A stretch of DNA of 34,157 bases from Aureococcus anophagefferens (Eukaryota > Sar > Pelagophyceae > Pelagomonadales > Pelagomonadaceae): the NCBI RefSeq assembly GCF_000186865.1, contig NW_008705608.1:90069-124225 (forward strand). The letters are read 5' to 3'. The notes under the pieces are model-generated. The model worked only from the letters and a program-made list of their open reading frames with translations. It was not told where the DNA came from and ran no database searches. This document shows, piece by piece, positions 4,116-32,200 of the stretch. Position 1 is the stretch's first letter, and each line of letters starts with the position of its first letter. The translations under genes were made by a program, and so were the position numbers.

Positions 4116-5347
4116 ATGCGCTCCCTGGCGCCGCTGCTCTTGCTGCACCGCTGCTCCGCAGGCTTTGAACGGGCGTGCAACGAGAGTTTAACGCCGAAGG
4201 GCGCGCACAAGCACAACGCAACACCCCCCGTGGGCTTCGTCGTGCTGAAACAGGGCAACAGCGGGAGCAGTTGGTTCTCGTCGATGATCGCGCGCCTCGA
4301 CAAGACCTACTTCCTCGACGAGGCCTTCACGAACAGCGGGGCGCACGCCGCGCCGGCGAGCGACGCCGACCTCCGGCGCTACCTCGCGCGCGCGCTCGCG
4401 GAGCCCACGGGCTACTACGGCCAAGGCGAGGGCTGCCCGCGCTGGGCCGCGTGCAGCCCGGGCCCTCGCCTGCTTCGTGGACAGGAAGTGCCGCCTGCGC
4501 GCCGTCGGCTTCAGCTACAACCCGCTGCCGAGCGACGGCGGCGCGCTCGCGCCCTTGGGTCGCGTCGTGCCGGCGTGGCTCGTCGCAAACGTGCCCGCCG
4601 CGCGGCTCGTCGTCTGGGTGCGGACGAACGTCGTCAAGATGGCCCTGGCGACCCACGGCGACAAGGCCGCCGCGCGCGACTACGCCGCGACGGGCCCGAG
4701 CGACCCGGCGAAGCGCCTGGCCAAGTGGCGCGCGTCTGTGCCGAATTCGACCACTGGTTTGGGGGGTCCCCACCAAACTTCAGAATTCTCTAGCTCGGTC
4801 AAATCGAAGTCGATTCGGCTGATTTTTGGACGGATCGATTGCTCTCGTCGATTTCTCGAAGCAAAGCCGAAGAGGTTGCGTCGAAACTGTCGCGTACGCT
4901 CACATTGAAGTCGAGTTGAAGATTTGAATTCGGCACAGGCGCGCGTACGACCGGTCGGACCTCGGCCACTTCGCGGACAGCGTCAACGCGCGGATCCAGC
5001 GCAACATGGCGCTGACGGACTGGGCCCACGCCGCGGGCGACGCCGCGCTGCTCTGCTACTACGAGGCCTTCCAGCTCGACGCCTACGCCGAGATGGAGCG
5101 GGTCCGCGCCTTCCTCGGCGTGCCCGAGACGCCCGGGCGCGCCTACGACTCCGCGTCGGTCAAGGCCAGCTCCGAGGACCTCCGACGGCTCGACGCGTTC
5201 CCCGCGCTCCGGCGGCTGCTCCTCGAGACGAAGAACGACTGCCTCCGCGCCATGCTCGAGGACACGACGCCGAGGGTCTACCCGGCGTGCCGCCTGTTGA
5301 CGGTCGCGGGCCTCGCCGCTCTTTCGGGAGCGAGCGGCCGTAACTGA
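4116..5347 (+). CDS. Sulfotransferase-like protein, one introner intron and one frameshift
   Basis: Exons are 4116-4727 and 4939-5347. Joining them across the introner gives Lys-Trp-Arg-Ala-Tyr-Asp-Arg with no lost base. The N-terminus has a short signal-like segment. Residues about 37-55 (Val-Val-Leu-Lys-Gln-Gly-Asn-Ser-Gly-Ser-Ser-Trp) match the PAPS 5'-phosphosulfate loop of sulfotransferases. The C-terminal Tyr-Glu-Ala-Phe ... Arg-Ala-Phe-Leu-Gly-Val-Pro segment is typical of the family, which moves sulfate from PAPS to carbohydrate or protein acceptors, often in the Golgi. The frame changes by one base near 4460-4462, in a CCCGGG run. Removing one G restores a continuous protein of about 339 residues. 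That is either a sequencing error or a real disabling mutation. Confidence 0.6.
4736..4938 (+). mobile_element. Introner copy A (203-bp subfamily), functions as an intron
   Basis: This is a 203-bp element with perfect 13-bp terminal inverted repeats (CTGTGCCGAATTC at the left, its reverse complement at 4926-4938). It is flanked by the 8-bp duplication GCGCGCGT at 4728-4735 and 4939-4946. The predicted intron is 4728-4938 (211 bp), phase 2, starting GC and ending CACAG. The interior aligns without gaps, apart from substitutions, to the reverse complement of copy E (27599-27801). It is unrelated to the coding sequence around it. Orientation is the same as the gene. Confidence 0.9.
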
Positions 5348-5409
5348 GCCGCGTTAGGCTTTTGCACAACTCCTAGCCGCGACACCGAACGTTACGTCCC
5401 GCCCCGCCC

Positions 5410-6801
5410 CTAGCCGGCGAGCTCGAGGATGGCGTGCTTCTTCTTGCCCGAGCTCAGCTTGACGTCGACGCCGGCCTCGAGCGCGACGGTCGCGTCGACG
5501 TCGTCGACCTTGGCGCCGTCGAGGCGCGCGCCGCCGCCCTTGATGAGGCGCTTCGCCTCGGACTTGGACTTGGCGAAGCCCGCGGAGACGAGGGCGTCGA
5601 CGACGGTGATCTCCGCGTCGCCCACGGCGACGCGCGGGAGCGACGCGGCCGAACCGCCGCCGCCCGCGAAGAGCCGGTCGACCGTCGCGTGGATGTCGGG
5701 CAACGCGTCCGCGCCGTGGAGCAGCGTCGTGCAGGCGTCGGCGAGCCGGCGCTTCGCGGCGTTGACGGCCGCGGCGTCCGGCGCCGCCGCGAGCTCCCGC
5801 TCGAGCGCGTCTACCTCCTCGAGCGGCGCGTCCGTGAACATGCGCGTGAACCGGACGACGTCGTCGTCGACCGTGTTCCGCCAGAACTGCCAGTAGTCGT
5901 AGGGCGCGAGCTTGCCCGGGCTCAGCCAGACGGCGCCCTCGGCCGTCTTGCCCATCTTGCGGCCGTCGCTCGTCGCGATGAGGGGCGCCGTGAGCCCCAC
6001 GAGGCTCTTGCGGTCGACGCGCCGCGCGAGCTCGACGCCCGACACGATGTTCCCCCACTGGTCGCTGCCGCCGAGCTGGAGCTTGACGTCGTAGCGCCTC
6101 GCGAGCTCGACGAAGTCGTAGGCCTGGAGGATCATGTAGTTGAACTCGAGGAAGCTCAGCGGCTGCTCGCGGCCGAGGCGCTGCTTCACGGACTCGAAGC
6201 TCAGCATGCGGTTCACGGAGAAGTGGGACCCGAACTCCCGGAGGAACTTGACGTAGGCGAGCTCGTCGAGCCAGTCCGCGTTGTTCACGAGGACCGCCCC
6301 GCCCGGGCCGAAGTCGAGGAACTTGTCGAAGATCGCGCTGATGCCCGCGATGTTGCCCGCGATGGCGTCGTCGTCCAACAACTTCCGGCTCTCGTCCTTG
6401 CCGCTCGGGTCGCCGACCTTCGTCGTGCCGCCGCCGACCAAAACCACGGGCGTGTGGCCGTGCTTCTGGAGGAGCCGGAGGATCATGATCTGGAGTAAGG
6501 AACCGACGTGCAGGCTGTCGGCCGTCGCGTCGAACCCGAGGTACGCCGCCACGGGCCCGCCGCTCATGGCCTCGTCGAGGCCGGACAGGTCCGTGCACTG
6601 CGCGAGGTAGCCGCGTCCAATAAATTCACGCAGGAACGCGCTCTCGAGGCTAGACGGGTCCACGGCGTCGGGGGCCGCCGGCTCGGCCGTCGACGCGCGG
6701 CGCAGCGGCGCAAAGCGGGCCGCCGACCGCGGCGCGACGCGCACGAGGCACCGCGCGGTCCGCGACGCCAGGAGCATGACTAAGGTGACCGTGGGCCGCA
6801 T
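5410..6801 (-). CDS. Tyrosyl-tRNA synthetase, bacterial/organellar type
   Basis: A 463-residue class I synthetase that charges tRNA-Tyr with tyrosine. The N-terminal 45 or so residues are Arg/Ala/Ser-rich without acids, a mitochondrial and/or plastid targeting sequence. Residues 98-101 are His-Val-Gly-Ser, the HIGH motif. The Asp-Gly-Arg-Lys-Met-Gly-Lys-Thr segment is the KMSKS loop, and a Gly-Gly-Ser-Asp-Gln-Trp-Gly-Asn motif of the tyrosine pocket is intact. The last 65 or so residues form an S4 RNA-binding domain, as in bacterial TyrRS. Length matches the bacterial type plus a presequence, so this is the organellar rather than the cytosolic enzyme. Start could be the ATG at 6801 or an internal ATG at 6777. 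It shares a promoter of about 120 bp with the divergent plastid protein gene. Confidence 0.93.
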   Translation of the reverse strand: MRPTVTLVMLLASRTARCLVRVAPRSAARFAPLRRASTAEPAAPDAVDPSSLESAFLREFIGRGYLAQCTDLSGLDEAMSGGPVAAYLGFDATADSLHVGSLLQIMILRLLQKHGHTPVVLVGGGTTKVGDPSGKDESRKLLDDDAIAGNIAGISAIFDKFLDFGPGGAVLVNNADWLDELAYVKFLREFGSHFSVNRMLSFESVKQRLGREQPLSFLEFNYMILQAYDFVELARRYDVKLQLGGSDQWGNIVSGVELARRVDRKSLVGLTAPLIATSDGRKMGKTAEGAVWLSPGKLAPYDYWQFWRNTVDDDVVRFTRMFTDAPLEEVDALERELAAAPDAAAVNAAKRRLADACTTLLHGADALPDIHATVDRLFAGGGGSAASLPRVAVGDAEITVVDALVSAGFAKSKSEAKRLIKGGGARLDGAKVDDVDATVALEAGVDVKLSSGKKKHAILELAG

Positions 6802-6921
6802 CGGAGGCGCGCGGCGCGGATGACGAGGCGGGCCGCAGACCTCAAGCGTCTCCGTCTCGCCTCTGTCGCTGCATCGTGCCGAAGCGAGTCGGAGTGCCGG
6901 GCTTCTCTGCCAGCGGTCGCA

Positions 6922-7458
6922 ATGGCTCCGAGGATATTATCAATCCTGCTGGCCCTCGCGGCCTCAGCGGCGGCCTTCCAGGCCCCGGTCCCGCGCCACG
7001 CGACGACGGCGCTGCGCCTCGGCGACGACCTGCCGGAGGTCGAGCCCGGGGCCATCGATTGGGATGACGAGTTCAAGAAACTGAAGCGCGGCGAGATCGA
7101 CACGGGCGCGGCGCGACGAAACGAGGCCGTGTGCGCGCCCCGCGTCGCACCCGTCCCTCCTCGACGGCGCGCGCGCGACCGCCGAGAGACTTGAGCCGCG
7201 CGCGCGCGACCGCGACCGCGGACCCCGCGCCGCAGGCTCGACGTCGAGCGCGCGGGCCGCGTCGCGCGGCAGAACGTGCGCCAGACGACGCAGAAGGTGA
7301 CGTCCACCGCGCGGTCCGCGGCGCGCAGCGCGCCGAAGATGCCCGCGGTGTCCAGCGACGCCAAGTTCTGGTTCGGCGTCCTCGTCGCGCTGTCGGTCTT
7401 TCCGCTCATCGTCAGCTCCCTCCAGGGGCCGCCCGACGTGTCGTCCGTCTACGTCTAG
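6922..7458 (+). CDS. Small plastid-targeted single-helix membrane protein
   Basis: Proposed exons are 6922-7130 and 7236-7458, giving 143 residues with a GT-AG intron of 105 bp. The donor is the least certain part. The N-terminus is a hydrophobic signal peptide ending Ala-Ala-Ala-Phe-Gln-Ala-Pro, the ASAFAP-like cleavage motif of bipartite plastid presequences in algae with secondary red plastids. The mature part is short, charged and helical. It ends with one transmembrane segment (Phe-Trp-Phe-Gly-Val-Leu-Val-Ala-Leu-Ser-Val-Phe-Pro) and a short tail. I do not recognise the family. The length and topology would suit a small subunit of a thylakoid or envelope complex, which is inference. Confidence 0.65.
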
Positions 7459-7626
7459 GCCGCCGCCGCCCCCGCCCACCCGCCCGCCCCTGCACACACC
7501 CGCGTAAACGTCGCGCGACGTCATTCGCGACGTCCGCCGCTCGGGAGGAAAAGGGCACCGTGTCGACGCTGCCCCATCAAGCTGCCCAGTCCGGTGAAAG
7601 TCTGGTGTTGCCCGCGGCGCTCGGCC

Positions 7627-10600
7627 ATGGGTCGCCGCGGCCGCCTGCTGCTGCTCCTCTTCGCCGGCGCGGAGGCCTGGCAGAAGTGGGCCTACGAGTC
7701 GAACGCGACGCAGGAGTGGCGCGACCTCTGGCGGCTGCCCCAGGGCCCCGGCGCGCGGCGGGGCCACACCATGGTGCTCTTCAACACGATGATCCTCATG
7801 TTCGGCGGGCGGTCCAACGAGGTGCGGCGGAACCACGTGCCCAAGACCTACGAGATCGAGACGGTCAACGGCACCATCGACTTCGTCAGCTACGACAAGA
7901 ACCCCATCGTCGACGGCACGTGCCGGTTGACGAATTCGTCCGAGGCCGGCGGCAACGCGTCGGCGTACTACGTCTGCGACAACCAGATCGACGTGGGCCT
8001 CTACTTCAACGACGTCTGGGCCTACGAGCTCAACTGCACGCGCTACGGCGACCTGCCCTGCGTCGAGCACACGTGGACGGTGCTCAACTACGGCGCGCAT
8101 CGCGGCGGCTGCAAGTACATCTTGGGCCGCGAGATCTGCACGCACCCGAGCGAGCGCTGGCTCCACGGCGCCGCCATGTTTTTAGATTCGACCATGCTCA
8201 TCTACGGCGGCTTCAGCCAGCGCTGCGAGGACTACTGCGACGACCTGTGGAGCTTCGACGTCCGCGACGGGTCGTGGATGGAGATCTACGAGGTGGGCCA
8301 CTTCAACCCGGGCGAGTCGCCGGGCAAGCGCTGGAAGTTCTCCATCGTGGCCGACGGGACGACGTTCTACATCTTCGGCGGCTTCCGGCTCTGGCACGGC
8401 TTCTCGTCGGACAACTCGGAGGACAACCGGTGGGACTCGTACGAGCTGCTGCCCCAGGGCGGCTACCTGAGCGACCTCTGGGTCTACGAGAAGCGGCTGC
8501 TGGCGCCGGAGGAGCCCATGCCGACGTCGTCGGCGGGGCTCGGCACCTGGACGAACCTCACGGAGAAGCTCACGCGCACGACGGGGCAGGACAAGAGAGC
8601 GAAATTCCCAACTTCAAAGGCTCGTTTCTCGGCCGTTTTCCACTCGTTTCGGCTGATCTTTGGACGAGCGATCGTCTCTCGGAACGGTCTCGAAGCGTGG
8701 ATGTGTTTTCTGTAACGCACGCGCGCGGAACACTCACGTTGAAGCGACGTTGAATCACCCTTGTGCTGCCCAGGTGCACGACGATCCCGGGCGACACGTG
8801 GGACGAGCGCGACGCGCAGTCGTGCGTCGCGTCCTGGCCCCAGGCCCGCGCGGGCCACGTCGCCGCGCTGGACCAGGAGCGCAACGGCATGTGGATCTTC
8901 GGGGGCTACACGACCTTCTTCCCCTACCTGTCCACGGACGGCCCGGGCTCGGGCCTCGGCGTCGTCGCGAAGCCGACGGCCCAGGGCTTCATTCCGTTTC
9001 CGGACTACCCCTACTACCTCGACGATCTGTGGTTCTACAATTTGACGGACGGCTACTGGACGTTGATCGCGCCCGTGTCGTCCTCGAACCCGGCCCCGCG
9101 GTGCGACACGACCTTGGTGCTCGACGGGCGGATTTTGATCATGTTCGGCGGCTTCAACGGGTCCCACCACTTCGACGACACGTGGTACTTCAACACGACG
9201 GAGTCGTCCATGCGCTGGCTCCAGAAGAAGGGCGTCGTCTACCCGCTCTGGCCGGAGAACTGCACGTCGGACCTCGAGACCGTCGAGGACAACTTGGACG
9301 AGTGCTTCCTCCTCGAGTGGAAGCGGCCCGTGCGGGCCCACTGCCAGTCGCCGTCCCAGGCCGGCTGCCGCTTCAACGACTGGTACGCGCCGGACCCGAA
9401 CAACAGCGCGCTCAACTTCGGGACCTACAACGGCGCGCCGTTCTACGGCATCGTCGACGCGCGGGACAGGGCAGGACAAGAGTGATTCAACGTCGCTTCA
9501 ACGTGAGTGTTCCGCGCGCGCTCGTTCCAGAAAAAGCATCCACGCTTCGAGACCGTTCCGAGAGATGATCGCTCGTCCAAAAATCAGCCGAAACGAGTGG
9601 AGAACGGCCGAGAAAGGAGCCTTTGAAGTTGGGAATTTCGCACTCTTGTCCTGCCCAGGCGCGCGACCCGGCGCCGACGGAGCCCGCGGGCGAGAACCAG
9701 CCCATCGTGCCCGAGGCGGCGACGGGGCCGCGCCAGTGGGTGCGGGGCGCCCAGTGGTGGAACGACTCCTGGGTCGCGCGCCACGAGCGCCTCGGCGACA
9801 TCGGCGACTACTTTGTGGAGGTCGAGACCGTCGACGACGCGAACGAGTCGTACACGACGTACAGCGGCACCTACTACCGGCGCTGCACGTCCGTCAAGGG
9901 CGAGGTGACGCGCGGCGGCACCATGGGCTGGCGCGGCGGCACGACGGACGGCGTCGCGGGCCGCGCGACGGAGCCGATCCTCGTGCCGCAGCCGCGGCGG
10001 CGCGCGCCGGGCTGGGACGGGTGCCGCGACCAGTGCTTCGGCGTCGTCCCGTCGAACCTGTACATGGACGCGAGCAATTTGTTCGACTGCCCCCTCGACG
10101 CGACGCTCCTCCCGGACATCGGCCTCCAGTACCTCCACCCGAACCAGCGGTCGGACCACGCGGCGATCAGGGCAGCAAAAGAGAGCGACATTCCCAACTT
10201 CAAAGGCTCCTATCTCGGCCGTTTTCCACTCGTTTCGGCTGATCTTTGGACGAGCGATCATCTCTCGGAACGGTCTCGAAGCATGGACGCTCTTTTCGGA
10301 ACGCGCGCGCGCGGAACACTCACGTTGAAGCGACGTTTCATCACTCTTTTGCTGCCCAGGCGGCGATCCACGCGCCCATGCTCGGGCAGACGCCGACGGA
10401 GAGCCGCTTCCTCGGCGAGCTTTATATTTTTGGCGGCGTGGGCTACGAGCGCGAGTACTACCAGACGACGAACACGACCTTCCAGACGGCCGTGCTCGAC
10501 GACATGTGGCGCCTGGGCATCCACGACTGCCCCTACAACTGCTCGAACCAGGGCGACTGCGTCTACGGCTTCTGCCGCTGCTACCCGGGCTACTACGGCG

Positions 10601-11259
10601 TCGACTGCTCCAACATCTCCTGCCCCGGCGACTTCTGCTACATCGACGAGGACACGAACATCCAGGTCTGCCAGCACTGCTGCCAGGCGGGCTACAACCA
10701 CACGGACGGCGACTCGTACGAGATCGACGTGCCGCGCGTGCCCTGCTCCTTCGAGAGCCAGCAGCTCGACGGGTCCTTCGGCGAGTCCAACGGCATCTGC
10801 GACGGCTTCGGCACCTGCCAGTGCGCGCCGCCCTACATCCTCGACGACTGCAGCGTCAAGGACTGCAAGCACAACTGCTCCGCGCGCGGCCACTGCTCCG
10901 TCGAGTTCCCCGTGAGCCGCTGCATCTGCAACCCGGGCTACTACGGCGAGTACTGCCAGTTCAAGGTCTGCCTGAACAACTGCTCCTACCCGAACGGCCA
11001 CTGCGACCCCGTGACGGGCGAGTGCGAGTGCGAGATGATGTACGAGCCCTACTTGAACACGCGCGAGTACCACCGGTGGGAGGGCGAGGACTGCTCCTAC
11101 CTGTGGGCCTACTGCGCCGGCACGAAAGCGACGCCCGCGGCCTGGGCCCTCGTCGGCGGCGCCGCCCTCTACCTCGGCCTCGGCCCCGGCGGCGCGCCGC
11201 GGCGCCGGAAACGCCGGCGCCGCGGTCGGCCGCGCGTGCCGCCGCGGGGGATGCCCTAA
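7627..11259 (+). CDS. Secreted kelch-repeat/EGF-like type I membrane protein, three introner introns
   Basis: Exons 7627-8573, 8774-9458, 9659-10159 and 10360-11259 join in frame to 1010 residues. Residues 1-17 are a signal peptide (Arg-Arg then a Leu run, Ala-Gly-Ala-Glu-Ala). Kelch blades with the Phe-Gly-Gly or Tyr-Gly-Gly signature lie near residues 45-65, 179-205, 233-255, 340-360, 425-445 and 729-740. Three Cys-rich EGF/tenascin-like modules follow at about 768-794, 880-908 and 912-940. A hydrophobic helix lies near 970-988, and a strongly basic tail closes the protein. Many Asn-X-Ser/Thr sites fit secretion. The architecture resembles attractin/MEGF8-type adhesion or receptor proteins; the ligand is unknown. 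All three introns are introners, in both orientations. Confidence 0.85.
8582..8773 (+). mobile_element. Introner copy B (192-bp subfamily)
   Basis: A 192-bp element in the kelch gene. Its ends are CGGGGCAGGACAAG and, at the right, the reverse complement of CTGGGCAGCACAAG. The flanking duplicates are GCGCACGA (8574-8581) and GTGCACGA (8774-8781), with one mismatch. The intron 8574-8773 (200 bp, phase 2) starts GC and ends CCCAG, and splicing yields Leu-Thr-Cys-Thr-Thr-Ile-Pro. It lies in the same orientation as the gene and aligns end to end with copies D and F, and with C reversed. Confidence 0.9.
9467..9658 (-). mobile_element. Introner copy C (192-bp subfamily), reversed relative to its gene
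   Basis: A 192-bp element with ends CAGGGCAGGACAAGAG and the reverse complement of CTGGGCAGGACAAGAG. Only base 2 differs between the arms. The flanking duplicates are GCGCGGGA (9459-9466) and GCGCGCGA (9659-9666). The intron 9459-9658 (200 bp, phase 0) starts GC and ends CCCAG. The sequence is the reverse complement of copies B and D, so an element inserted backwards still supplies an acceptor from its other end. Confidence 0.9.
10168..10359 (+). mobile_element. Introner copy D (192-bp subfamily)
   Basis: A 192-bp element with ends CAGGGCAGCAAAAGAG and the reverse complement of CTGGGCAGCAAAAGAG. It sits in a perfect 8-bp duplication GCGGCGAT (10160-10167 and 10360-10367). The intron 10160-10359 (200 bp, phase 0) starts GC and ends CCCAG. 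Splicing gives Asp-His-Ala-Ala-Ile-His, continuous with the next kelch segment. Orientation is the same as the gene. Confidence 0.92.
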
Positions 11260-11316
11260 CACCCGTTCTATGCGAACCGCGCCTCGTACGCGGGGGATGC
11301 CCGAAAAACCCGTTTA
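11243..11316 (+). repeat. Imperfect direct repeat at the 3' end of the kelch gene
   Basis: Two copies of about 29 bp, at 11243-11271 and 11289-11316, share an identical 14-bp core (CGCGGGGGATGCCC) followed by a similar A/C-rich stretch ending in TAT. The first copy contains the kelch stop codon and the second lies in its 3' flank. A C run (about 11327-11335) follows just before the stop of the convergent minus-strand gene. Confidence 0.6.
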
Positions 11317-11333
11317 TACGGAAGCCCCCCCCC

Positions 11334-12221
11334 CTAGTCCTTGGTCTCGACGGCGACCTGGCCCTCGTCGGGCGCGGGCGCGACGCGGCGGCGGCGGCTC
11401 CGGCTCCGCCGCGAGGGGATGCGGAGCCGCGTGAAGAGGCGGCTCACGCGGCTCCGGTGGAGCGACGTCGGCTTGCTCGTCGGCGGCGGCGCGTCCTCCC
11501 AGGCCTTCTGCGGCGGGTCCACGGAGAGGGCCGTCGGCGTCTTGGGCTTGGGGAGCGCCTCCGCGGGCGGCTCGTCCGCCGCGGGCGCCTCCGGGAACCG
11601 CAGCGGCCCCCGGAGCCGCCGCGCCTCGGCGGCAGAGAGCGCGTCGCCGACGTTGACCGCCGGCGCGCGGCCCGCGCCGTCGAAGTCGCGCCAGGTCTCG
11701 TTGAAGAGCGCGAGCACGCGCCGCGTCGCGTCGGACGCCGAGACGCGGAGGTGTCCGGCGACCGCGGCCACGGACCCGAGCCGCGCCACGTCGCCGAAGG
11801 CGCGCAGCGCCGGCGGCGCCGCCGGCTCCTCGAGCGCGTCGAGGGCCGGCGCGAGGTCCCGCGCGGGGCCCGGCGAGCCCGAACCGTCGGCCGCGAAGCG
11901 GCCCGGCGTCCGCCGCTCCGGCGACGCCATGGCCATGACGACGGACCCGTCCATGCTCTCCTCGAGGCGGTCCGGCGGCGCGTCGACGGAGGCGACGGAC
12001 ATGTCGAGGCTCGGCGACGCCGACAGCGTCGGGGGCGCCGCCTTCGGGGCGCGCGTCTTCTTCTTCTTGCGCACGTTTTTCGGCTGCGTCGGCGCGACGC
12101 TGATGGGCTCCAGCTTCTTGAGCGACGTCGACGCCGGCATATCGCCGAGCCGCCGGGCGGCGAGCGGGTCGCTCGGCGCGCCGAGAGGGCGGAGGACCGC
12201 CAGCCCGGGCTCCATGGACAT
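11334..12221 (-). CDS. Low-complexity basic protein, unrecognised
   Basis: The ATG at 12221 gives 295 residues. The frame extends upstream to 12266, but the region before the ATG is less GC-biased. The protein is Pro/Ala/Ser-rich with a Lys run near residue 50 (Lys-Lys-Lys-Lys-Thr), an Ala/Leu-rich helical stretch in the middle (about 130-205), and a C-terminus dense in Arg/Ser. The basic patches could be nuclear localisation signals. No domain is recognised and no function is proposed. It converges on the kelch gene with about 75 bp between stop codons. Confidence 0.5.
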   Translation of the reverse strand: MSMEPGLAVLRPLGAPSDPLAARRLGDMPASTSLKKLEPISVAPTQPKNVRKKKKTRAPKAAPPTLSASPSLDMSVASVDAPPDRLEESMDGSVVMAMASPERRTPGRFAADGSGSPGPARDLAPALDALEEPAAPPALRAFGDVARLGSVAAVAGHLRVSASDATRRVLALFNETWRDFDGAGRAPAVNVGDALSAAEARRLRGPLRFPEAPAADEPPAEALPKPKTPTALSVDPPQKAWEDAPPPTSKPTSLHRSRVSRLFTRLRIPSRRSRSRRRRVAPAPDEGQVAVETKD

Positions 12222-12300
12222 GTCGGGAGCGCTCCGTGTCCAGCGCGCGGGCTGCCGCGTCGGCAAATCTCAACCGTTCGGTGTGAATCTTGCCCTTCAA

Positions 12301-12416
12301 TTGCCGTTGTTGATTGGTCGTGCGGCAAGGCTTCGTCTCGCGCAGTCTTCAGAAAGTTTGTCAGTGGCGTTGTGATTTCAAGGCCTGCCAGCCGCACGAC
12401 CTATCAACAACGGCAA
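12301..12416. repeat. 116-bp inverted-repeat element (26-bp arms)
   Basis: The arms at 12301-12326 and 12391-12416 are reverse complements over 26 bp with one mismatch. They begin TTGCCGTTGTTGAT and enclose a 64-bp loop. The element ends two bases beyond the stop codon (TAA at 12418-12420, minus strand) of the glycosyltransferase gene, so it would lie in that gene's 3' UTR and could form a long hairpin. It has no similarity to the introners and no clear target duplication. It could be a MITE-like insertion or a transcript-end structure. Confidence 0.75.
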
Positions 12417-12417
12417 G

Positions 12418-13845: not shown

Positions 13846-14020
13846 CGTCAGCGTCGAGGTGCAATGTCGACACGGCACTTCATCGTAAAAATAGCGGCTT
13901 ACGACGATGGAATGCGCCCACTCTGAGTCGCCGCGACGGATCCTAGCAACGAGCTCCACGCTCGGATAGAGAGCTCGATACGTCGTGAGCCGTTCGCCGC
14001 GTGAGCCGCTCCGTCGCACC

Positions 14021-16439: not shown

Positions 16440-16458
16440 GTCGATATAAGGCGATATG

Positions 16459-19756: not shown

Positions 19757-19824
19757 CGACGGCGTCGGCAGGCGCCGCGAGAGCTATTGCCACAAAACTT
19801 CAATTTTGTAATGTTTACGTCAAC

Positions 19825-19981: not shown

Positions 19982-19989
19982 CGGCAACC

Positions 19990-21231: not shown

Positions 21232-21240
21232 TTCAGACCA

Positions 21241-21376
21241 CCGCCGGACCCCGGATTTCGTTCACAACTTAAGGGGGAGGGGAGATCGCACTTTGAGATC
21301 GCGGTCGTTCCGGGACCGCCGCCGGACCAACTTGAACCCCGGCTTTCGTTCACAACTTAAGGGGGAGGGGGGGATC
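21241..21376 (+). repeat. Direct repeat in the convergent 3' region
   Basis: Copies at 21241-21287 and 21319-21376 share an identical 27-bp core (21256-21282 and 21344-21370, offset 88 bp, containing CGTTCACAACTTAAGGGGG). The second copy has a short insertion upstream of the core and runs into the stop codon of the minus-strand hemerythrin gene (21375-21377). The repeat fills nearly the whole space between two convergent genes. Confidence 0.7.
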
Positions 21377-22700: not shown

Positions 22701-23103
22701 CTCGCCGGGGTTGCCGCGGCGCGACGTCTTTGGGTGTGTCTGGGCGCCCGCCCCGGCGTGCGGAGACGAGCTGAACGCGGGTGAGAGTGGGAAGTGGCCG
22801 CCGTCGACGGGATCGACGCGCCCCGCTCGAATTCGGCGCGGCGTTTATGGGTGTGGGTGTTGGGGCGGTGTCGAGGGCGCCCCCGCACGGCCGAAATCGG
22901 CTGTGCAGGCCAAGTTGACGAAACACGGACGCGCGGCTCGCAGGCGGCGACGGCAGTCAAGTCCGGGCAAAGGCCTAAATAGAGCATGCACGTGCCTCCT
23001 TAAGGAAGCGGGCTTCGATGCAACTTTAGCCTAACCTTTGAATTTACCCTCGTCTCGAACCTGAACGGCCTAGCACAGCCGACTCGGTACGTCAAATACC
23101 CAC
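22701..23103. other. Intergenic region with a small perfect-loop hairpin
   Basis: About 400 bp between two minus-strand genes. The only structure seen is a 10-bp stem with one mismatch around a 2-base loop at 22885-22906 (GCACGGCCGA, AA, TCGGCTGTGC), too short to interpret. The last 130 bp are less GC-rich. No coding signal is convincing on either strand. Confidence 0.35.
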
Positions 23104-24108
23104 TTAAAACCCCCGCCGTTTCGCCAGGTCCTCGAGCGCCGCGTCGACGTCGGCCGCGCGCAGCTCCGGCGCGGCGGCGACGGGCAGGTCGCGCGGCGGC
23201 CCGCGCTCGCCCGCGAGGCCCGCGGCGGCCAACAGCGCGTCGACCTCGGTCCGCGCCAGCGGCCGGGCGGCGCCGACGGGCAGGTCGCCGAGCTCGAGGG
23301 GCCCGACGCGGTCGCGGTGGAGCGCCGTCACCGAGAGACCCGCGCGCTCCGCGAGCCTCCGGACCTGGCGGTTGCGGCCCTCGGCGATGACGACCGCGAG
23401 CGTCGCGGTCGCCGCGCGCCGCGCCTCGATAGACACCTCCGCCGGCGCCGTGCGGACGCGCTCGCGCGTGTGCGGCGTGACGTCGTCGAGCGGCTCCGCC
23501 AGCGACCGCAGCGCCCGCTCGCCCGCGGCGCCCGCCGGCACGCCGGCGACGTCGAGGACGTAGGCCTTGGTCGTGGTGCCGGCGGAGATGAGCCGCTTGC
23601 TCACGGCGCCGTCGTCCGTGAAGAGCAGCAGCCCCGTCGTGTCCTTGTCGAGCCGGCCGACGGGGCCGAGATCCGGGAACCCGTCGGGCAGCACATCGAA
23701 GACCGTCGTCGCCCGGCCCGACGCGTCGCGCTGCGTCACGCAGCCGAGGGGCTTGTGGAACATGAAGTAGTAGTGCCGCCGCTTCGCGAAGGACTCGCGC
23801 CGGCTCGTCGCCGACGCTTCGCCGTTCCAGGGCCGCGCGCATCGGCCGGCGCGCGCGCCGCGCGCGGTCTTGCGCACCTTGCGCGTCGCCAGGCCCGTGA
23901 GCCGTGCGAGCGTCGTCGCCGTCGCCGCCGACGGGTAGGGCACGAGCGAGCGCTGGATGCGCGAATCGGAAAGCAGCTCCTGCGGGTAGCGCTGCGCCGC
24001 CGCCAGCCAGCGCCGCCGCCGCCGCCAGCGCGCGACGATCGCGGCTGCTGTCGCCGCGAGCGCCGCCGCGAGCGCTGCGCGCGCGAGCGTCGGCGTCGTC
24101 GAGAGCAT
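23104..24108 (-). CDS. RNA pseudouridine synthase, RsuA/RluB/E/F family
   Basis: The ATG at 24108 gives 334 residues. A longer frame to 24189 would enter the 88-bp divergent promoter. An N-terminal Ala-rich hydrophobic stretch followed by Arg run (about 10-33) looks like organelle targeting or a membrane anchor. The catalytic domain has the family opening Phe-His-Lys-Pro-Leu-Gly (about 117-122). The motif Gly-Arg-Leu-Asp-Lys-Asp-Thr-Thr-Gly-Leu-Leu follows, with catalytic Asp154, and then Glu-Gly-Arg-Asn-Arg-Gln-Val-Arg-Arg. The enzyme isomerises a specific uridine in rRNA or tRNA to pseudouridine, probably in plastid or mitochondrion. An S4 domain, common in this family, is not evident, though residues 45-90 might be a degenerate one. 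Confidence 0.88.
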   Translation of the reverse strand: MLSTTPTLARAALAAALAATAAAIVARWRRRRRWLAAAQRYPQELLSDSRIQRSLVPYPSAATATTLARLTGLATRKVRKTARGARAGRCARPWNGEASATSRRESFAKRRHYYFMFHKPLGCVTQRDASGRATTVFDVLPDGFPDLGPVGRLDKDTTGLLLFTDDGAVSKRLISAGTTTKAYVLDVAGVPAGAAGERALRSLAEPLDDVTPHTRERVRTAPAEVSIEARRAATATLAVVIAEGRNRQVRRLAERAGLSVTALHRDRVGPLELGDLPVGAARPLARTEVDALLAAAGLAGERGPPRDLPVAAAPELRAADVDAALEDLAKRRGF

Positions 24109-24196
24109 ACGCTGGACGGTGCTAGCTCCAGCTACGCTGGGCCCTGCCGCTCCATCATCATCATCATCTCCCAAAACTCTCTGTGGCAAGAGCTCG

Positions 24197-24793
24197 ATGG
24201 AGCGCGCGCGCGACGGAGACGACTTCGGGCGCGACCGGCGCGACGACAGGCGCAGCTCGCGTAGTCGCGAGCGGAGACGCAGCCGCTCGCGCAGCCGCGA
24301 CCGGCGCGAGCGGAGGCGGAGCCACGACCGCAGCCGTAGAGATCACAGAGACCGCAGCCGCGACCGCAGCCGTGGAGACCGCAGCCGTGGAGACCGCAGC
24401 CGCGGCGACCGCGACCGGAGCCGCAGCCGCGGCGACCGCGACCGGAGCCGCGGCGACCGGAGCCGCGACCGGCGCGACGGCTCGCGGGACCGCGACCGCC
24501 GCGCGGACGACGCGTACGGCTTCCGGCGCCGCTCGCCGCCGCCGCGCCGCGCGCCGCCGCCGCCGCGCCGCGCGTCGCCGCCGCGCCGCGCGCCGCCGCC
24601 GCCCGTCGACGACGAGCGCTTCCGCCCGCGCGGCGACGGACCGAAGCGCCTGCGGCCGAACGCGAAGTCCTTCGCCGGGTTCCTCACGTCCGTCGTGAGC
24701 TCCCGCGAGCGCGAGGACCGCGAGCTCCGCCAGGCGGCGGACGCGCGCCTGGCGGAGCTCGAGTTCGGCGACCGCGACTTCCACAGCGCGTAA
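24197..24793 (+). CDS. Arg/Ser-rich (RS domain) protein
   Basis: The ATG at 24197 gives 198 residues. Residues about 10-115 are an RS/RD-rich array, including tandem Arg-Gly-Asp-Arg-Ser and Arg-Asp-Arg-Ser units (about 24340-24490) that are near-identical at the DNA level. Residues 115-145 are Pro/Arg/Ala repeats. The last 50 or so residues are non-repetitive and look like the conserved part (Lys-Ser-Phe-Ala-Gly-Phe-Leu-Thr-Ser-Val-Val). RS domains mark nuclear splicing factors and speckle proteins; no RRM is visible, so an RS-related accessory splicing role is inferred. The minus-strand frames over it are shadows. Confidence 0.75.
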   Translation: MERARDGDDFGRDRRDDRRSSRSRERRRSRSRSRDRRERRRSHDRSRRDHRDRSRDRSRGDRSRGDRSRGDRDRSRSRGDRDRSRGDRSRDRRDGSRDRDRRADDAYGFRRRSPPPRRAPPPPRRASPPRRAPPPPVDDERFRPRGDGPKRLRPNAKSFAGFLTSVVSSREREDRELRQAADARLAELEFGDRDFHSA

Positions 24794-25040
24794 GGTTTTC
24801 TTCGCGGGCTGTAAAGGGTGGTGTTGTGGGTGGATAAGGCGTCCGGCGAGCGCGGGACGACGGCGGTACGCGTCGGCCGCACCATCCGCCCATCGAGGCG
24901 GGTGTGGAAGGCGCGGGCGCGTGCGGGTCGACGTCGCACGTGAAGTACGCGTCGCTCGCACTGCTCGCACTGAAAGTTGAAGCCGATATTGACTTGGGAG
25001 AGCTCTTCGATGGTCTCTCAGTAGACGCGAATCCACTAGC

Positions 25041-28000
25041 ATGGCGCGCCTGTATGACTACAGCAAATGGGACAAAATCGACACGGACGACGCGAGCAGC
25101 AGCGACGACGACGACGGCGAGGTCGTGATAGAGAACGACTGGGCGGAGGAAGACCGGCCGCCGCCGCAAACGGTGACCGACGTCGCCGCGCTCGCGGACG
25201 CCGACGACCGCCGGCCGCCGCCGCCGCCGGAGCCCGTCCCGAACGTCGTGCACGGGCCGGAGCTGCCGCCGCCGCCGCCGCCGCCGCCGCCGCTGCCGCG
25301 TTGGGAGGTCGACGGCCTGCCGGCGACGCTCGTCGAGTGCGAGGCGTGCGACGTCGAGAATGAGAACGCGCGCGGCGAGCTCGAGGAGCTCTGCCGCGGC
25401 TTCCTCTGGGTGCCCGGCATCCGCGGGTCCCAGCGCGGGGGCTTCGCGCCGCCGGCGATCCGCGTCGAGACGGGCCCGGTCGCGGCCGCGGGCGCCGTCG
25501 CCTTCGCGACGCGCGCGCCGGACCGCCTGCCGTCCTCGAAGAAGGACGCCACCCGGCTCGCCTTCGCGGCGGCGCTGCCGCACGTGCGCGCGCGCATGGC
25601 GGGCGTGCCGCCGCTCGAGGGCACGAAGAAGCAAAAGGCGGCGGCGCGCGCCGCGGCGACGCCGCGGACGCGGCTCGAGCTCGCGGGCGCGGCGCTCGGC
25701 TGGGACGCGCCGGAGTTCGAGGGGAAGACGTGCCGCTGGGGCAAGGCGGACGCGCGCCGCTCCTCGACGGCGCCGAACAACCGCGAGGGCGGCGACGTCG
25801 CGCAGCTCGCGGCGCTCGTCGCTCTGCGCGCGATGGAGGCCGACTACGGCGCGGGCGGCGCGGCCGTCGTCGACGCCTTCGTCCGCCAGGCGCAGGCGCC
25901 ACCCGAGCCGGTGCGCGCGCCGCCGCAGGACGGGGGCGTCGAGGAGGCCAAGGAGGAGCCGCCGCCGCGCGCGACCGCGGCGCGCGCGGCGCGCCCGCCC
26001 CCAGTCGGCGGCGGCTCGTCGGTGCTCGACGTCGCGGCGCGCTGCTGCGGCGGCGACGAAGACGCGGGCAAGGGCCGCAACAAGGGCGGGCGGCCCATGA
26101 GCGACGACGAGATCGAGCGGTTCCGCGCGGCCGTCGTCGGCCTCGAGGTCGCCTGGGGCGCGGACTCGCGCGGCGTCGTCGAGGGCGTCGAGCGGCCCGC
26201 GGACGAGCTTCGCGTGCGAGGCTTCGGGTCCGCGGGCGAGGCGCCGACGGTCGCGGCGTGGTGGGAGGCCGTCGGCGGCGGCGAGAAGTTCGGCGTCAAG
26301 GCCGCGGCGACGGCGCTCGGGAGCGGCGACGGCGACAAACTCGCGGCGGAGCTCTGCCGGCGCCGCAAGCTCAGATTCCCGGCGTTCCCCTGCCTGGCCA
26401 TCGCCGGCGGCTCCCTCGTGCCCCTGGAGCTCGCGACTCTCGTCGACGGGGGAGCGCCGGTGGACGAGGACGACGACGCGGCCGCGCGGCGCGCGGCCGC
26501 CGCGGAGGCGCGCGCCGCGGCCGACGACGCGGCCGCCGCGGGGGCCGCGGCGCTCGCGGCGCGGGTCGTGCTGTGCCTGCGCGCGGGCCGCGGCCGCGTG
26601 AACCTGTCGCAGTTCGCGGACGCGCTCCGCGACCGCGGCTTCGCGGCCCTTCCGGGGACGCGCGGCCGCCGCCGGCAGCTCGAGGGGCTCGCGGCCGCGT
26701 CGGGCGGCGCGTTCGCGGTCGTCGCCGACGCCGCGTCCGCGTGCTGGGTCGAGCTCGGCGACGGCCAGGACTACGCGGCGCCGCCGCCGATCGCCGCGCC
26801 GCCGCCGCCGGCCGCCGTGTTGCCGCCGCCGGCCGCCGCGCCGCCCGTGCCGCCGCCGCCGGCCGCCTTCGCCGCGCCGGTCGTCGCGCCGCCGCCGCCG
26901 GCCGCGCCGTTGCCGCCGCCGGCCGCGGGCGCGGAGGACTGGCTCGGCGACGAGGACGAGGACCTGGGCGCCGTCCCCGGCGGCGCGCTCGAGCGGCTCC
27001 GGACCATCGGCTGGGGCGACGCGGCCTTCGACGCGGCCGCCGCGACGCACCGCGCCGACGAGCCGGAACGCATCCTCAAGTTCCACCAGCTCCTGGGCGC
27101 GGAGCGGCACCGGGCGGGCGTCGAGCCCCACGACGACGCCTGCGCGTGCTTTTGGCTCCGCGTCGACGGCGTGGGCTTCCACAACTGGAGCCCGCGGCGC
27201 GGCGTGACGATGCCCTACGACGGCCGCGTCCACGGCGCCTTCGTCGCCGCGGCGCGCCGCGCCGTCGCCGACTTCCGCCGCCACGGCCTCGATCCCCTCG
27301 CCGCCTTCACGGAGAGCGACGAGATCACGTTCTTATTTCGGGGCCCGGCGACCACGGCCGGCGGCGCGTCGGACCCGCGGCGCCGCCTCGAGACCTTCGC
27401 CGCGGCCGTCTTCACGTCGGCCTTCGCCGCGGCGCTCCCGGGAGAGATGACGGACGGGGGCAACGACGGCTTCTTCGACGCGCGATCGTTCGCGGCCTCG
27501 TCGAACGCCGCGGGCCTCGCGGCGCTCGTCTGGCGGCGCCTCGACACGACGCGCAACGCGAGCTCCCAGGCGCTCCGCCACCTGCACGACGTCACGATCT
27601 GTGTGGAAATCAAATCTTCAACCCGACTTCAATGTGCGCGTAATTGAACGGATTGCGCCGGAATCTTCGGCTGAGCTTCGAGAGCTCGACGAGAGCAATC
27701 GATTCGTCCAAAAGTCAGCCGAATCGACCTCGATTTGACCGAGCTCGAGAGTTCTGAAGTTTGGTGGGGATAACCCAGCTCACTGGTTGATTTCCACACA
27801 GGTCACGATCACGCCGGGCAACCACAAAGAGCAGCGCGGGCGCCTCGCGGCCCTCGGGACGCCGTGGGCGTCGCTGCCGCCGGAGCTCCGCTACGGCACG
27901 CTCCTCCTCGCCGGCGACGACCGCACCCACAACGTGCGCCTCCGCGTGCCGCGCACGGCCGACGAGGCGCGCGTCCTCGACCGCGCGGTCTTCGACGAGC

Positions 28001-28050
28001 AGCGCTGGACCGACGCGCTCCACGGACCGCACCCGCGAGCGCGCGTCTAG
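25041..28050 (+). CDS. Thg1-like 3'-5' RNA polymerase (tRNA-His guanylyltransferase family) with long N-terminal extension
   Basis: Exons 25041-27590 and 27802-28050 give 932 residues. The Thg1 palm lies in the last 250 or so. Val-Asp-Gly-Val-Gly-Phe-His has the first metal-binding Asp at 709, and Glu-Ser-Asp-Glu-Ile-Thr-Phe has the second near 760. The segment across the introner and the Leu-Pro-Pro-Glu-Leu-Arg-Tyr-Gly end match the end of eukaryotic Thg1, so the gene must be spliced. Family members add G to the -1 position of tRNA-His or repair tRNA 5' ends. The preceding 680 or so residues are unusual: acidic start, poly-Pro blocks, Ala-rich linkers and a short region near 515-570 that might be a winged-helix/LOTUS-like fold (weak). 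Further introns in exon 1 are not excluded. Confidence 0.75.
27599..27801 (-). mobile_element. Introner copy E (203-bp subfamily), GT donor, reversed relative to gene
   Basis: A 203-bp element with perfect 15-bp terminal inverted repeats (CTGTGTGGAAATCAA and its reverse complement). It sits in a perfect 8-bp duplication GTCACGAT (27591-27598, 27802-27809). The intron 27591-27801 (211 bp, phase 0) starts GT and ends CACAG. The reverse complement aligns with copy A over the full length without needing gaps, yet the terminal repeats differ from those of A. Removing it gives Leu-His-Asp-Val-Thr-Ile-Thr. Confidence 0.92.
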
Positions 28051-28093
28051 TCGGAAGAGTCGGCATCTAAGTTCGTCGCTTCTTACTTGAATC

Positions 28094-28921
28094 TTAGTCG
28101 TGCGCCTCTTCCTGCGCCTGCGCGAGCGCCGCCGCTGCCGCTTCCTCGTGCGGTGGCCCGACGACCATCATGAGCAGTGGCTCGGACCAATTTTCGCCCT
28201 CCGGCTTCTCCTTATGCCGCAAGTTGCACAACTTTTCGTCATCGAGGATGAGGCGCCCGTCAAATATCAGTTGAGCATCTGCGGGACACGATTCGCCCCT
28301 TGGCGTTTTGCGTAGTTTGTCGTAGATACCTCGAACAGAACGATTGCAGTTCTCCAAAATGATCAACTCAGGGCCACTGGGAATCAAGCGCAGATGCATG
28401 ATTCGCATGCGTGGTAGCACGTCTAGCTTTGGCAAACGCAGTTTGAGCTGATTTATGGTCTGCGGACAACAACTCGCGCACGGGTTGAGCTCGAATGTGG
28501 GAGGGGGGTGAACTAAATCAACACGCAGACGCTTGAGCTTCGGACATCTGTCTGGAAGGAGCAGAAGCAGCGGCTTCGCCACAGAGCATTGTCGCAAGTC
28601 AAGGTGAACAAGCCCGCTGTAAAATCGCGTCGCACATTCGAATGCCGTGTCCGCTGACGCGAACGCGTCGCTGCCACAGCCGGATACACCGAGGAGCCGG
28701 CGCAACGATCCCACCGATTCTTTCTGCGCGCGGAACCGGCGCATGTCTTGGCAGAATGTGCGGTCGAGACAAGCAACCGAGGCCGCGACATCGAGATGCG
28801 CAGCGATAAAATCGAGGACCGAAATGGGTCTCAACAGCCGATCATCTTTTGGCACGAGGCGCGCGGAGCGCGCGGGGGGCGCGGGGGGCGCGGCCTCCTT
28901 GTCCTTGAGCGTCGTCACCAT
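28094..28921 (-). CDS. F-box-like/leucine-rich/ubiquitin-like domain protein
   Basis: A 275-residue intronless ORF. Residues about 30-63 resemble an F-box (Leu-Asp-Phe-Ile-Ala-Ala-His-Leu ... Cys-Leu-Asp-Arg-Thr-Phe). Residues 103-180 hold leucine-rich segments (Leu-Val-His-Leu-Asp-Leu-Arg-Gln-Cys). Residues 185-257 look like a ubiquitin-like fold: Ala-Gln-Leu-Ile-Phe-Asp-Gly-Arg-Leu-Ile-Leu-Asp-Asp corresponds to the Arg-Leu-Ile-Phe-Ala-Gly-Lys part of ubiquitin, and a beta strand (Leu-Leu-Met-Met-Val-Val) closes it without a Gly-Gly tail. Codon use is less GC-biased than neighbours, as in the F-box-like gene at 1489. It converges on the Thg1-like gene with 43 bp between stops. The domain calls are from motif reading only. 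Confidence 0.6.
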   Translation of the reverse strand: MVTTLKDKEAAPPAPPARSARLVPKDDRLLRPISVLDFIAAHLDVAASVACLDRTFCQDMRRFRAQKESVGSLRRLLGVSGCGSDAFASADTAFECATRFYSGLVHLDLRQCSVAKPLLLLLPDRCPKLKRLRVDLVHPPPTFELNPCASCCPQTINQLKLRLPKLDVLPRMRIMHLRLIPSGPELIILENCNRSVRGIYDKLRKTPRGESCPADAQLIFDGRLILDDEKLCNLRHKEKPEGENWSEPLLMMVVGPPHEEAAAAALAQAQEEAHD

Positions 28922-29205
28922 GCCGCCGCGCGCCTGTTGCCCGCGGGGTGTGCCTGCAAGATGATGTTCAACCTATAGCCGACTGCGTACGCCTCTGCGT
29001 CGTGCGGCGCTTCATGCGGCTTCCACTTCTACCGCAAGCCCTTACTCGGGCGCGAACGCGCGCTGGAGGTCCTGATGCAGCGGCCCAGGCTCGCGGTGCG
29101 CGCGTTCCGTCGCCCGCCAGCCCTCGATCTCGTCGGCGGACGACGGCCCCGGCGGGACGTCTAGAGTCGGTAACGAAACGAAAACTGGGAAGCCCCTTCC
29201 CCGCC

Positions 29206-32200
29206 CTAGACGAGGCCCGAGCCGTCGTCGAGGTCGAGGTCGTCCTTGGCGCAGAGGGGCTCGACCTCCTCGCCGCAGAACTCGGCGAAGTGCTTCGCGA
29301 GGCCCGTGGCCACGGCGAGGCGGTGGAGCCTCGCGCGGAGCTCGTCGAACACGCCGGGCTTGCGGGGCTTGTCCTTGCTCGTCAGGTGGTCGTCCTGGGC
29401 GTCGACGTCCGGCGGCTTGTAGAGCTTGAGCGCGAGGGACGAGAGGACGACGCTCAGGCTCGAGAAGACCATGCACGCGGCCGCGGCGGCCGGCGGGAGC
29501 CGCGCGCGCGTCGCCGGGTAGAAGGCGCCCGCGGCGACGGGGATGAGGACCATGTTGTAGCACGAGGCCCACAGGAAGTTGAGCTTGATGCGCGTGTAGA
29601 CCGTCTTCGCCAGGTGCAGCGACACGACGACGTCGCGGAGGTCGTTTTTCACCAAAACGACGTCCGCGGCCTCGATGGCCACGCGCGTGCCGTTGCCGAT
29701 GGCGATGCCCACGTCGGCCTGGGCCAGCGCCGGCGAGTCGTTGATGCCGTCGCCGACCATGGCGACGCCCCGGTGCACGCGCTGCAGATCCGCGACGCAC
29801 CGCTTCTTCTCCGCCGGCAGCGCGCCCGCGCGGACGCGCGCGGGCCGCAGCCCCAGGTCCTCGGCGACGGCGAAGGCCGTCGCCTCGTGGTCCCCCGTGA
29901 GCATCCAGACGTCGACGCCGCGCCGCCGCAGCGCCCGCAGCACCGCGCGCGCCTCGGGCCGCGGCGCGTCCGCGACGGCCACCGCGCCGACCACCGAGCC
30001 GTCGAGCGCGACGAAGACGGCCGTCTTCGCCGCGCGCCGCCAGCCGGCGACGGCGTTCCGCAGGTCCGGGTCGTCCAACCCCCGCTCGTCGACGCCCGCG
30101 TCCCGCATGAGGCCCAGCGAGCCCACGGCGAGCGCCCGGCCGTCGGCCAGCGCGCAGACGACGCCCTTGCCCTCGCGGTCCTCGGCGTTCGACACGGGCT
30201 CCGTGCCCAGCTTGCGCACCGCCGCGGCGTCGATCAGCGCCTTGGCGATGGGGTGCGCCGAGTGCTGCTCCGCGGCCGCCGCGAGCGCCAAGACGCGGTT
30301 CTTCGCGACGGAGCCCAGCGCGAACTCGCCCGCGAGCTCCGGCTGGCCCGTCGTCAGCGTGCCCGTCTTGTCGAGGACGACGCAGGACACGGCCTGGGCC
30401 GCCTCGAGCACGGCGCCGCCCTTGACGAGCACGCCGTGCCGCGCGCCGACGCCCGTGCCGACCATGACCGCCGTCGGCGTCGCGAGGCCCAACGCGCAGG
30501 GGCACGCGACGACGACGACGGACACCGCAAAGAGCAGCGCGAAGAGGAACGGGTCCCGCTCGTCGAGCCAGGCGTCGGGCATGGCGCCGCTCCGCGCGTA
30601 GGCGTACCAGCCGAGGAACGTGCAGGACCCGCAGAGGACGATGAACGGCGTGAACTTGGACGCGACGGCGTCGGCAAAGTGCTGCACGGGCGCCTTGTTG
30701 AGCTGGGCGTCCTCGACGAGCTTGGCGATCTGGGCGACGGCGCTGTCGCCGCCCGTGCGCTCGACGACGACGGCGAAGGCCCGGCCGCGGTTCACCGCGG
30801 ACGCGAAGACGGCGGCGCCGCGCTTCTTCTTGACGGCCGCGAACTCGCCCGTGATGGCGCTCTCGTCGACGTGGGCCGCGCCCTCGGCGCCGGCGAAGGC
30901 GCCCTCGTCCTCGACGAGCACGACCAGACCGTCCGCGGGCACGGCCTCGCCGGGGAGCACGCGCGCGACGTCGCCCTTGCGGAGCGCGTCCGCGGGGACC
31001 GTCGACGCCGCGGACTTGGCCGCCTCCGCGCGGAAGGCCCGCTCCAGCGCGGGCACGCCCGGGTCGCCCGGCGGCGCCTTCAGCAGCGCCTGGGCGGCCC
31101 GGGCCATGGCCTCGCCGCCGCCGAGGAGCTTCGCGTCCGTCGGCCGCAGGGCCAACAACGCCCCCACCGCGTCGGACGTCTTCATCTTCGCGCGCGCCTC
31201 GAGGAACTTGCCCAGGCTCACGAAGGTGATGAGCATGGCCGCCGTGTCAAATAGTAAATGCTCGTGGGACGCGTCGAAGAGGCAGCAGTCCACCAGGGAC
31301 GCGCACGAGTACGCGAAGACGAGCGACGTCGCCAGCACCACCAGCAGGTCCATGCCCAGGTTGCCCACGCGCACGCCGCGCCACGCGGAAACATAAAACC
31401 GCGCGGCCACAAAGACCTGGATCGCGCCGCCGCAGCCCGCGGCGACGGCGGCGACGCGCGTCATCTTGCCGTGGCAGGCCACGGGATGCGCCTGAGCAGC
31501 ACAAGGGTGATGCAACGTCGCTTCAACGTGAGTGTTCCGCGCGCGCGCGTTTCGGAAACAGCACCCACGCTTCGAGAGCGCTCCGAGAGATGATCGCTCG
31601 TCCAAAAATCAGCCGAAACGAGTGGAAATCGGCCGAGAGAGGAGCCTTTGAAGTTGGGAATTTCGCACCCTTTTCCTGCCACGGGATGCGCCCAGAAGTC
31701 GCGCGTCGCCGCCATCGCCGCGAACCACTTCGACAGCACGATGGGCAGCGTCAGCGCGGCGGCGGCGCTCAGCGTGCGCCGCCAGCCCGCGACCTCCGCC
31801 GCCGCCGACTCCGCGAGCACGGACTCGTCGCCCGCCGCGACGGACGCGCGGAACCCGAGCGCCTGGACGACCTCGATGAGCTCGCCCGGCCGCAGGGGCC
31901 GCCCGGCGAATTTCACGCGCGCCTTGTGGGTCGCGACGGAGACGACGGCGTCGGCGACGCCCGCGAGCTCGCCGAGCGCCTTCTCGACTTTCGAGGAGCA
32001 CGCCGCGCACGACATGCCCTCCACCCGCAGCACCACACTCCCGTCGCCCCGCGCCGCGTCCGTCTCGCAGACGTCGCAGCCGAATCCCGCCCGCCGCACC
32101 GCGCCCGCGATGGCCTCGGCGTCCGCGCGCGCGTCGAAGCGCACGACGCAGCGCTCCGCGAGGTACGCGACGCGGCAGGAGACCACGCCGGGCAACGCCT

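Follow-up and report, generated by a model that had tools for sequence, protein, structure and literature searches.

How can short transposon-like sequences settle in the middle of coding frames and leave the genes readable? This question is raised by a window of 34,157 nucleotides from the brown-tide alga Aureococcus anophagefferens (assembly GCF_000186865.1, contig NW_008705608.1, positions 90,069 to 124,225 of the forward strand), in which six elements, called E1 to E6, lie inside four reading frames. The window means this whole stretch, and coordinates are counted from its first base. The six elements are very probably copies of two families of short transposon-like repeats, each of them predicted from the sequence to be spliced out exactly, with its own 3' AG and with a 5' GC or GT (GY) taken from the target duplicate. 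A jump of such an element is likely to make a new intron rather than to break the gene. Elements of this kind, known as introners, rank with the best-supported sources of mass intron gain. In the A. anophagefferens genome it can be counted cleanly which half of the splice signal comes with the element and which half from the target.

Introners were reportedly described in A. anophagefferens by Huff, Zilberman and Roy in 2016 (Nature 538:533). These authors are said to have found short non-autonomous DNA-transposon-like elements that carry one splice site, co-opt the other from the duplicate and are removed exactly; the present elements share the species and the element type, and no difference is known. 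Introners of A. anophagefferens are also treated in passages of PMC7789003 and PMC9860276, so both the class and its occurrence in this species are already known, and PMC9481584 lists Huff et al. 2016 among its references and gives about 210 bp as the characteristic length of these introners. Introners with DNA-transposon ends were also the reading of the initial annotation of this window, which is supported here; the source species is among those that it named.

Six elements in four reading frames

When searched with profile models derived from copies elsewhere in the genome, the window yields exactly six matches, at 4736-4938, 8583-8773, 9467-9658, 10168-10359, 27599-27801, and 31492-31680. 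These positions agree within 3 bases with those of the initial annotation, and no others were found. Two families are present, A of 192 bp with four copies and B of 203 bp with two, and both contain the core TTCGGCTGANNTTTGGACG.

The family B copy E1 consists of the element at 4736-4938, preceded by the duplicate GCGCGCGT at 4728-4735 and followed by the second duplicate at 4939-4946; the predicted intron is 4728-4938 on the plus strand. The second copy of this family, E5, has its core on the minus strand and lies at 27599-27801, between the duplicates at 27591-27598 (GTCACGAT) and 27802-27809, with a predicted intron at 27591-27801 on the plus strand. Three family A copies follow each other in one gene for a kelch/EGF-like protein. 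E2, in plus polarity, occupies 8582-8773 between GCGCACGA (8574-8581) and GTGCACGA (8774-8781), E3, in the opposite orientation (minus polarity), occupies 9467-9658 between GCGCGGGA (9459-9466) and GCGCGCGA (9659-9666), and E4, again in plus polarity, occupies 10168-10359 between GCGGCGAT (10160-10167) and the second duplicate at 10360-10367. Their predicted introns are 8574-8773, 9459-9658, and 10160-10359, all on the plus strand. The fourth family A copy, E6, is read on the minus strand in plus polarity, from the duplicate GCGCATCC at 31691-31684 through the element at 31683-31492 to the second duplicate at 31491-31484, with a predicted intron at 31492-31691.

Terminal inverted repeats and an 8-bp target duplication, which the initial annotation had ascribed to every copy, are present in all six. 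The duplicates are exact in four, and those of E2 and E3 have a single mismatch each. The inverted repeats of the 203-bp copies are perfect over 13-15 bases. Those of the 192-bp copies are imperfect, and the second base differs between the two ends in every copy.

One element and one duplicate together measure 200 or 211 bases, neither of which is a multiple of three. Their removal yields uninterrupted frames of 1,010 amino acids in the kelch/EGF-like protein gene (7627-11259, plus strand, after removing three predicted introns), 932 amino acids in a gene with a Thg1 (tRNA-His guanylyltransferase) domain (25041-28050, plus strand, host of E5), and 1,051 amino acids in a heavy-metal P-type ATPase gene (29206-32561, minus strand, host of E6). 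The host of E1 is an open frame across 4736-4938 without a Pfam match. All six elements lie in open frames and the window has no further copies; the initial annotation had placed all of them in coding sequence and none in the spacers.

Upstream of E1, the frame of its host gene seems by eye to shift at 4455-4470. The gene may have a further intron there, its frame may be shifted, or the assembly may be wrong.

Copies across the genome

The genome searched comprises 49.05 Mb in 86 contigs. The exact 19-base core has 2,503 matches in it (1,241 and 1,262), compared with 0 for the reversed pattern used as a control, so the search for further copies that the initial annotation had proposed yields at least 2,503. 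The number is a lower bound because four of 44 near-full copies (loci L002-L038, some overlapping) do not contain the exact core. Introners are recognized by many similar copies at unrelated sites, with a similarity that reaches the splice borders, and this is found here, with 2,503 matches in the genome, four different host frames in the window, and elements whose ends coincide with the predicted borders.

Ends and duplicates were studied in 142 distinct core-bearing copies, which are not a random sample. They comprise the window copies, the first-listed places on contig C1 (100 listed, at least 50 loci taken), a portion of the 40 top matches to 8582-8773 (loci L001-L008 plus 18 places), and 18 places with unusual ends. 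Both features were assigned in 129 copies, with no mismatch between the duplicates in 99, one in 26, and two in 4; the length of 8 bp is assumed in this set because the procedure sought duplicates of that length. With this length preset, the 129 copies have the terminal inverted repeats and fixed-length target duplicates of miniature inverted-repeat transposable elements. The median divergence from the family majority is 4.7% in family A (67 copies) and 10.8% in family B (48 copies).

Splice signals and the coding strand

The relation between AG and GY was first examined without a gene model. In 89 copies with AG at one end only, GC or GT opens the duplicate on that strand in 88, as against 25 at the other end. 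A codon model trained on three window genes was applied to 123 copies outside the window, from which the element and one duplicate had been removed. In 111 of these, the two flanks independently agree on a single frame out of six, and 103 are without a stop; at random positions in the same loci, such agreement is found at 671 of 1,066, of which 593 are without a stop. Among the 111 frame-consistent copies, GY stands at the sense start of the 5' duplicate in 110 and at the opposite end in 32, and the element terminates in AG in 110. The strand predicted from AG and GY is the coding strand in all of the 100 decidable copies. This GY...AG rule on the coding strand, valid for 110 of 111 copies, supports the claim of the initial annotation that removal restores an exact frame, and further support comes from the homologues without insert at three kelch junctions and from a 1,051-residue protein read across E6, both discussed below.

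Ordinary transposon copies that disrupt genes and are kept in the messenger RNA would have the same transposon marks, namely inverted repeats, 8-bp duplicates and numerous copies. Such disruption is scarcely credible here, because one coding frame continues after removal in 111 of 123 copies and the splice dinucleotides match the coding strand in all 100 decidable copies. Moreover, the unspliced kelch gene has seven stops in its frame, the first one within E2.

The GY start could also be mainly a target preference of the transposase that splicing exploits, which is a variant of the exact-splicing account and not exclusive with it. In 12 copies without an agreed coding frame, 11 likewise have GY and AG on one strand, and to that extent the GY rule could partly be target preference, which tells against a purely splicing-based account. 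However, many of these 12 copies may lie close to the border of a gene or intron, and two have a neighbouring element in their flank. Among copies of the 203-bp family, where one end resembles the other, GY is found on the side set by the coding strand whichever way the element points (21 and 15 copies, without exception), and GT is enriched at the predicted 5' site about twofold over its share of GY in flanking exons (0.45 vs 0.22, p = 8e-8), as splice strength would predict. Target preference as the main cause is rather unlikely.

Two further places were noted on contig C1. At L110 (G000:C1:2490559-2490995), two introners lie about 60 bases apart, and the coding-frame test is uninformative for this pair because each copy sits in the flank of the other. 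At L036 (G000:C1:859089), a copy ending in AG has a duplicate without a GY start on either strand, and no single coding frame is scored across its flanks; this copy may be an insertion outside genes.

Exact removal or twelve additional bases

Retention of the frame alone was rejected as proof of exact splicing, since 12 extra bases, eight from the duplicate and four from the element, also keep the frame. This is what would be added, as four residues, if the 5' splice site lay inside the element after base 4. Several findings are in favour of such an internal site or fail to distinguish it from exact removal, and they weigh against the latter. An alternative splice site is available, as G followed by C or T is found at element positions 5-6 at both ends in 121 of 121 near-full copies. 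An Aureococcus sp. introner family is stated to add 12 bases to the transcript in the legend to Fig. 2F of Gozashti et al. 2022 (PMC9860276). The public A. anophagefferens ATPase models disagree at the E6 junction, where P0218 has three residues more and P0217 six fewer; this conflict probably arises from the rejection of the GC site by gene-finding programs.

In contrast, an internal 5' site would leave without reason the GY at the start of the coding-strand duplicate, which 110 of 111 copies have there and only 32 have at the opposite end. Homologues of the kelch/EGF-like protein have no insert at the E2, E3, and E4 junctions, the nearest of them at 81% identity. The public protein P0216 (1,051 amino acids, two substitutions) runs through the exact predicted E6 junction (...RDFW-AHPVACHG...) and has no extra residues there. 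The E6 intron is absent from its source DNA, whose longest contig (3,335 bases) is too short for 3,156 coding bases and a 200-base intron. P0216 goes back either to spliced RNA or to an E6-free allele, and the second possibility is a caveat on its weight for splicing. Taken at the sequence level, exact removal is supported by the GY rule, the insert-free homologues at E2-E4, and the P0216 junction, and a 5' site inside the element is quite improbable. Gene models that refuse GC or GT sites of this kind would misplace these introns, as the conflicting ATPase models suggest.

Proposed mechanism and the search for an autonomous partner

A transposase encoded elsewhere is likely to insert the element through an 8-bp staggered cut. 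If the eight target bases start with GY on the sense strand and the AG end of the element lies downstream, the spliceosome would remove one duplicate together with the element, and the reading frame would be restored once both are spliced out. Genic insertions that fail the GY or the AG condition would be purged by selection, and the observed GY...AG pattern may be due to this removal of non-conforming insertions.

Two results weigh against this account. In 13 of the 142 sampled copies, ends and duplicates were not assignable. In addition, the autonomous partner with the same ends and a transposase, which the initial annotation had advised looking for, did not come to light, and end-pattern and domain-family searches found no transposase with introner ends in the genome. 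The end-pattern search, limited to ends near the common types, yielded 8 and 12 places with common ends and altered neighbours. Nineteen of these 20 contain the introner core with 0-2 mismatches, and the remaining place, L062, has 5 mismatches to it and is ambiguous.

The hAT superfamily has 8-bp duplicates and CAGGG ends, and 8-bp duplicates are also made by the P-element superfamily. Searches for the hAT domains PF05699 and PF14372 gave 0 genome matches, as did their controls. The KDZ domain had no match in the genome or in its control, and the MULE domain had no genome match with a control that did match. A single P-element-type transposase domain (PF21787) was found at L059 (G000:C25:178372-178818), with three in-frame TAG codons and in a search whose control was without a match. 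The surroundings of L059, the upstream part excluded, contain no introner end, the best agreements being 11/16 and 11/15.

The 5' splice site and intron phases

The predicted 5' site is GC in 61 and GT in 49 of 111 introns; family A has 38 GC sites among its 65 introns and family B has 23 among 46. Beyond these two bases the site carries almost no information, with at most 0.11 bit against background at each of positions +3 to +8 and at most 0.16 at the six preceding exon bases. In five copies the duplicates differ at base 2, and four of these have intronic GC with exonic GT and one the reverse; E2 is a further case of intronic GC with exonic GT. Phases 0, 1, and 2 are represented by 50, 21, and 40 introns, in keeping with how often codons offer GY at each phase (p = 0.36). 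The same agreement is said to be reported in the abstract of Huff et al. 2016.

If these predictions are true, a 5' site with almost no information beyond GY, and with GC more frequent than GT, raises the question of how the spliceosome selects the site. One tentative and speculative answer is a choice guided by structure. Introns without a 5' sequence of their own beyond two bases might have their GY found exactly eight bases outside a closing stem, in which the terminal repeats pair with each other. The intron would then be defined by the structure of the element and not by the usual U1 pairing. Under this proposal, a single repeat base would set the direction of splicing and an exchange between ends could flip it, by which a family would be split into two mirror-image lineages.

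Predicted folding is of little help here. At least 8 end-to-end pairs are formed in 103 of 111 introns, as inverted repeats must give, and the folding energy is mildly below that of shuffles (mean z -1.31 for the first 40 of the 111, single-base shuffles). Folding was rejected as evidence of function, since the pairing of ends is inherent to inverted repeats and the energy difference is mild.

Polarity and paired ends

The 192-bp family is almost strictly polar, with a single AG end and two mirror-image groups. At the end that serves as the 3' splice site, the second base inward is T (read as AG), whereas the opposite end has another base there, mostly A or G. Each family A copy could therefore be used as an intron in one direction only. 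The second base was never alike at both ends of a copy (0 of 66, compared with 0.28 expected from base frequencies). Genome-wide counts, made with patterns that required the common inner bases GGGCAG and left other variants outside the count, show the same asymmetry. The CA...AG pattern CAGGGCAG...CTGCCCAG is found at 1,122 places (571 and 551; control 0 and 1), and the CT...AG pattern CTGGGCAG...CTGCCCAG at 13 (control 2 and 2). Seven of these 13 start with CTGGGCAGGGC on one strand and are read as pattern artefacts, which leaves 6. The CA...TG pattern CAGGGCAG...CTGCCCTG is found at 0 places (control 1 and 1). Judged by eye, the first 100 listed CA...AG places have AG at one element end in 67 and at the other in 33.

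Family B has AG at both ends in 38 of 54 assigned copies and could serve as an intron either way. The polar family plausibly arose from an unpolarised CAGGG...CCCTG transposon by the change of one base to make AG. A one-base switch of direction, if it holds, would allow the descent of introners from ordinary transposons to be tested. Recurrent switching of polarity was considered but is not demonstrated: the best tree has 8 changes, compared with a mean of 13.7 after shuffling, but no more than 1 is required by branches with strong support, and the tree of inner sequences is too weak for dating such switches.

The two ends of a copy also resemble each other more than ends drawn from different copies. 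Of 15 bases, 13.14 agree within family A copies vs 12.43 with permuted ends (standard deviation 0.10), and the corresponding values for family B are 12.74 vs 11.73 (standard deviation 0.11). Often, too, a copy with matching ends is unlike its closest relative, as judged by the inner sequence, at both of them (15 of 43 copies in family A, 14 of 26 in family B). The paired ends could be due to any one of three causes, namely subfamilies, exchange between ends, or selection for a closing stem. They were rejected as proof of end-to-end conversion, since subfamilies could give the same excess.

Relation to known introners

Symbiodinium: The legend to Fig. 2B of Gozashti et al. 2022 (PMC9860276) describes introners that are likewise bounded by inverted repeats and duplicated target bases; they bring their own 3' site and borrow the 5' site from the duplicate. 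The duplicates in this example are of 4 bp, whereas those of the Aureococcus window are of 8 bp. The introner bias towards genes stated in the same source is also seen here.

Other families in PMC9860276: GC 5' sites make up 0-50% of a family in the survey as given there, while the shares in families A and B given above are 38/65 and 23/46. The 12-base addition in that source belongs to family 4 of Aureococcus sp., and such an addition is not supported for the present elements.

Pelagomonas calceolata: In this related pelagophyte, PMC9481584 gives a peak of intron length near 210 bp. The likeness to the present introns concerns their length.

Amoebophrya: Introners described in passages of PMC7789003 likewise have inverted repeats able to form a closing stem, and direct repeats at their borders. 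In contrast to the 8-bp duplicates and GY...AG borders found here, the direct repeats are of 3-5 nt and the splice sites are non-canonical and variable.

In the literature searched, which excluded the text and supplements of Huff et al. 2016, no statement was found for these elements on a polarity set by one base, on a majority of GC sites, or on paired ends, and no novelty is claimed for these features.

Source species and neighbouring genes

The product of the tyrosyl-tRNA synthetase (TyrRS) gene at 5410-6777 is identical to an annotated A. anophagefferens protein at 431 of 431 aligned residues outside gaps, and it differs from a second annotated protein of the species at 5 of 423. The ATPase that hosts E6 matches A. 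anophagefferens AURANDRAFT_33869. By the TyrRS identity and the ATPase match, the species is the one in which Huff et al. 2016 reportedly described introners. In a small gene of the window, the stretch 7128-7236 looks by eye like an ordinary GT...AG intron of about 109 bases, without introner sequence.

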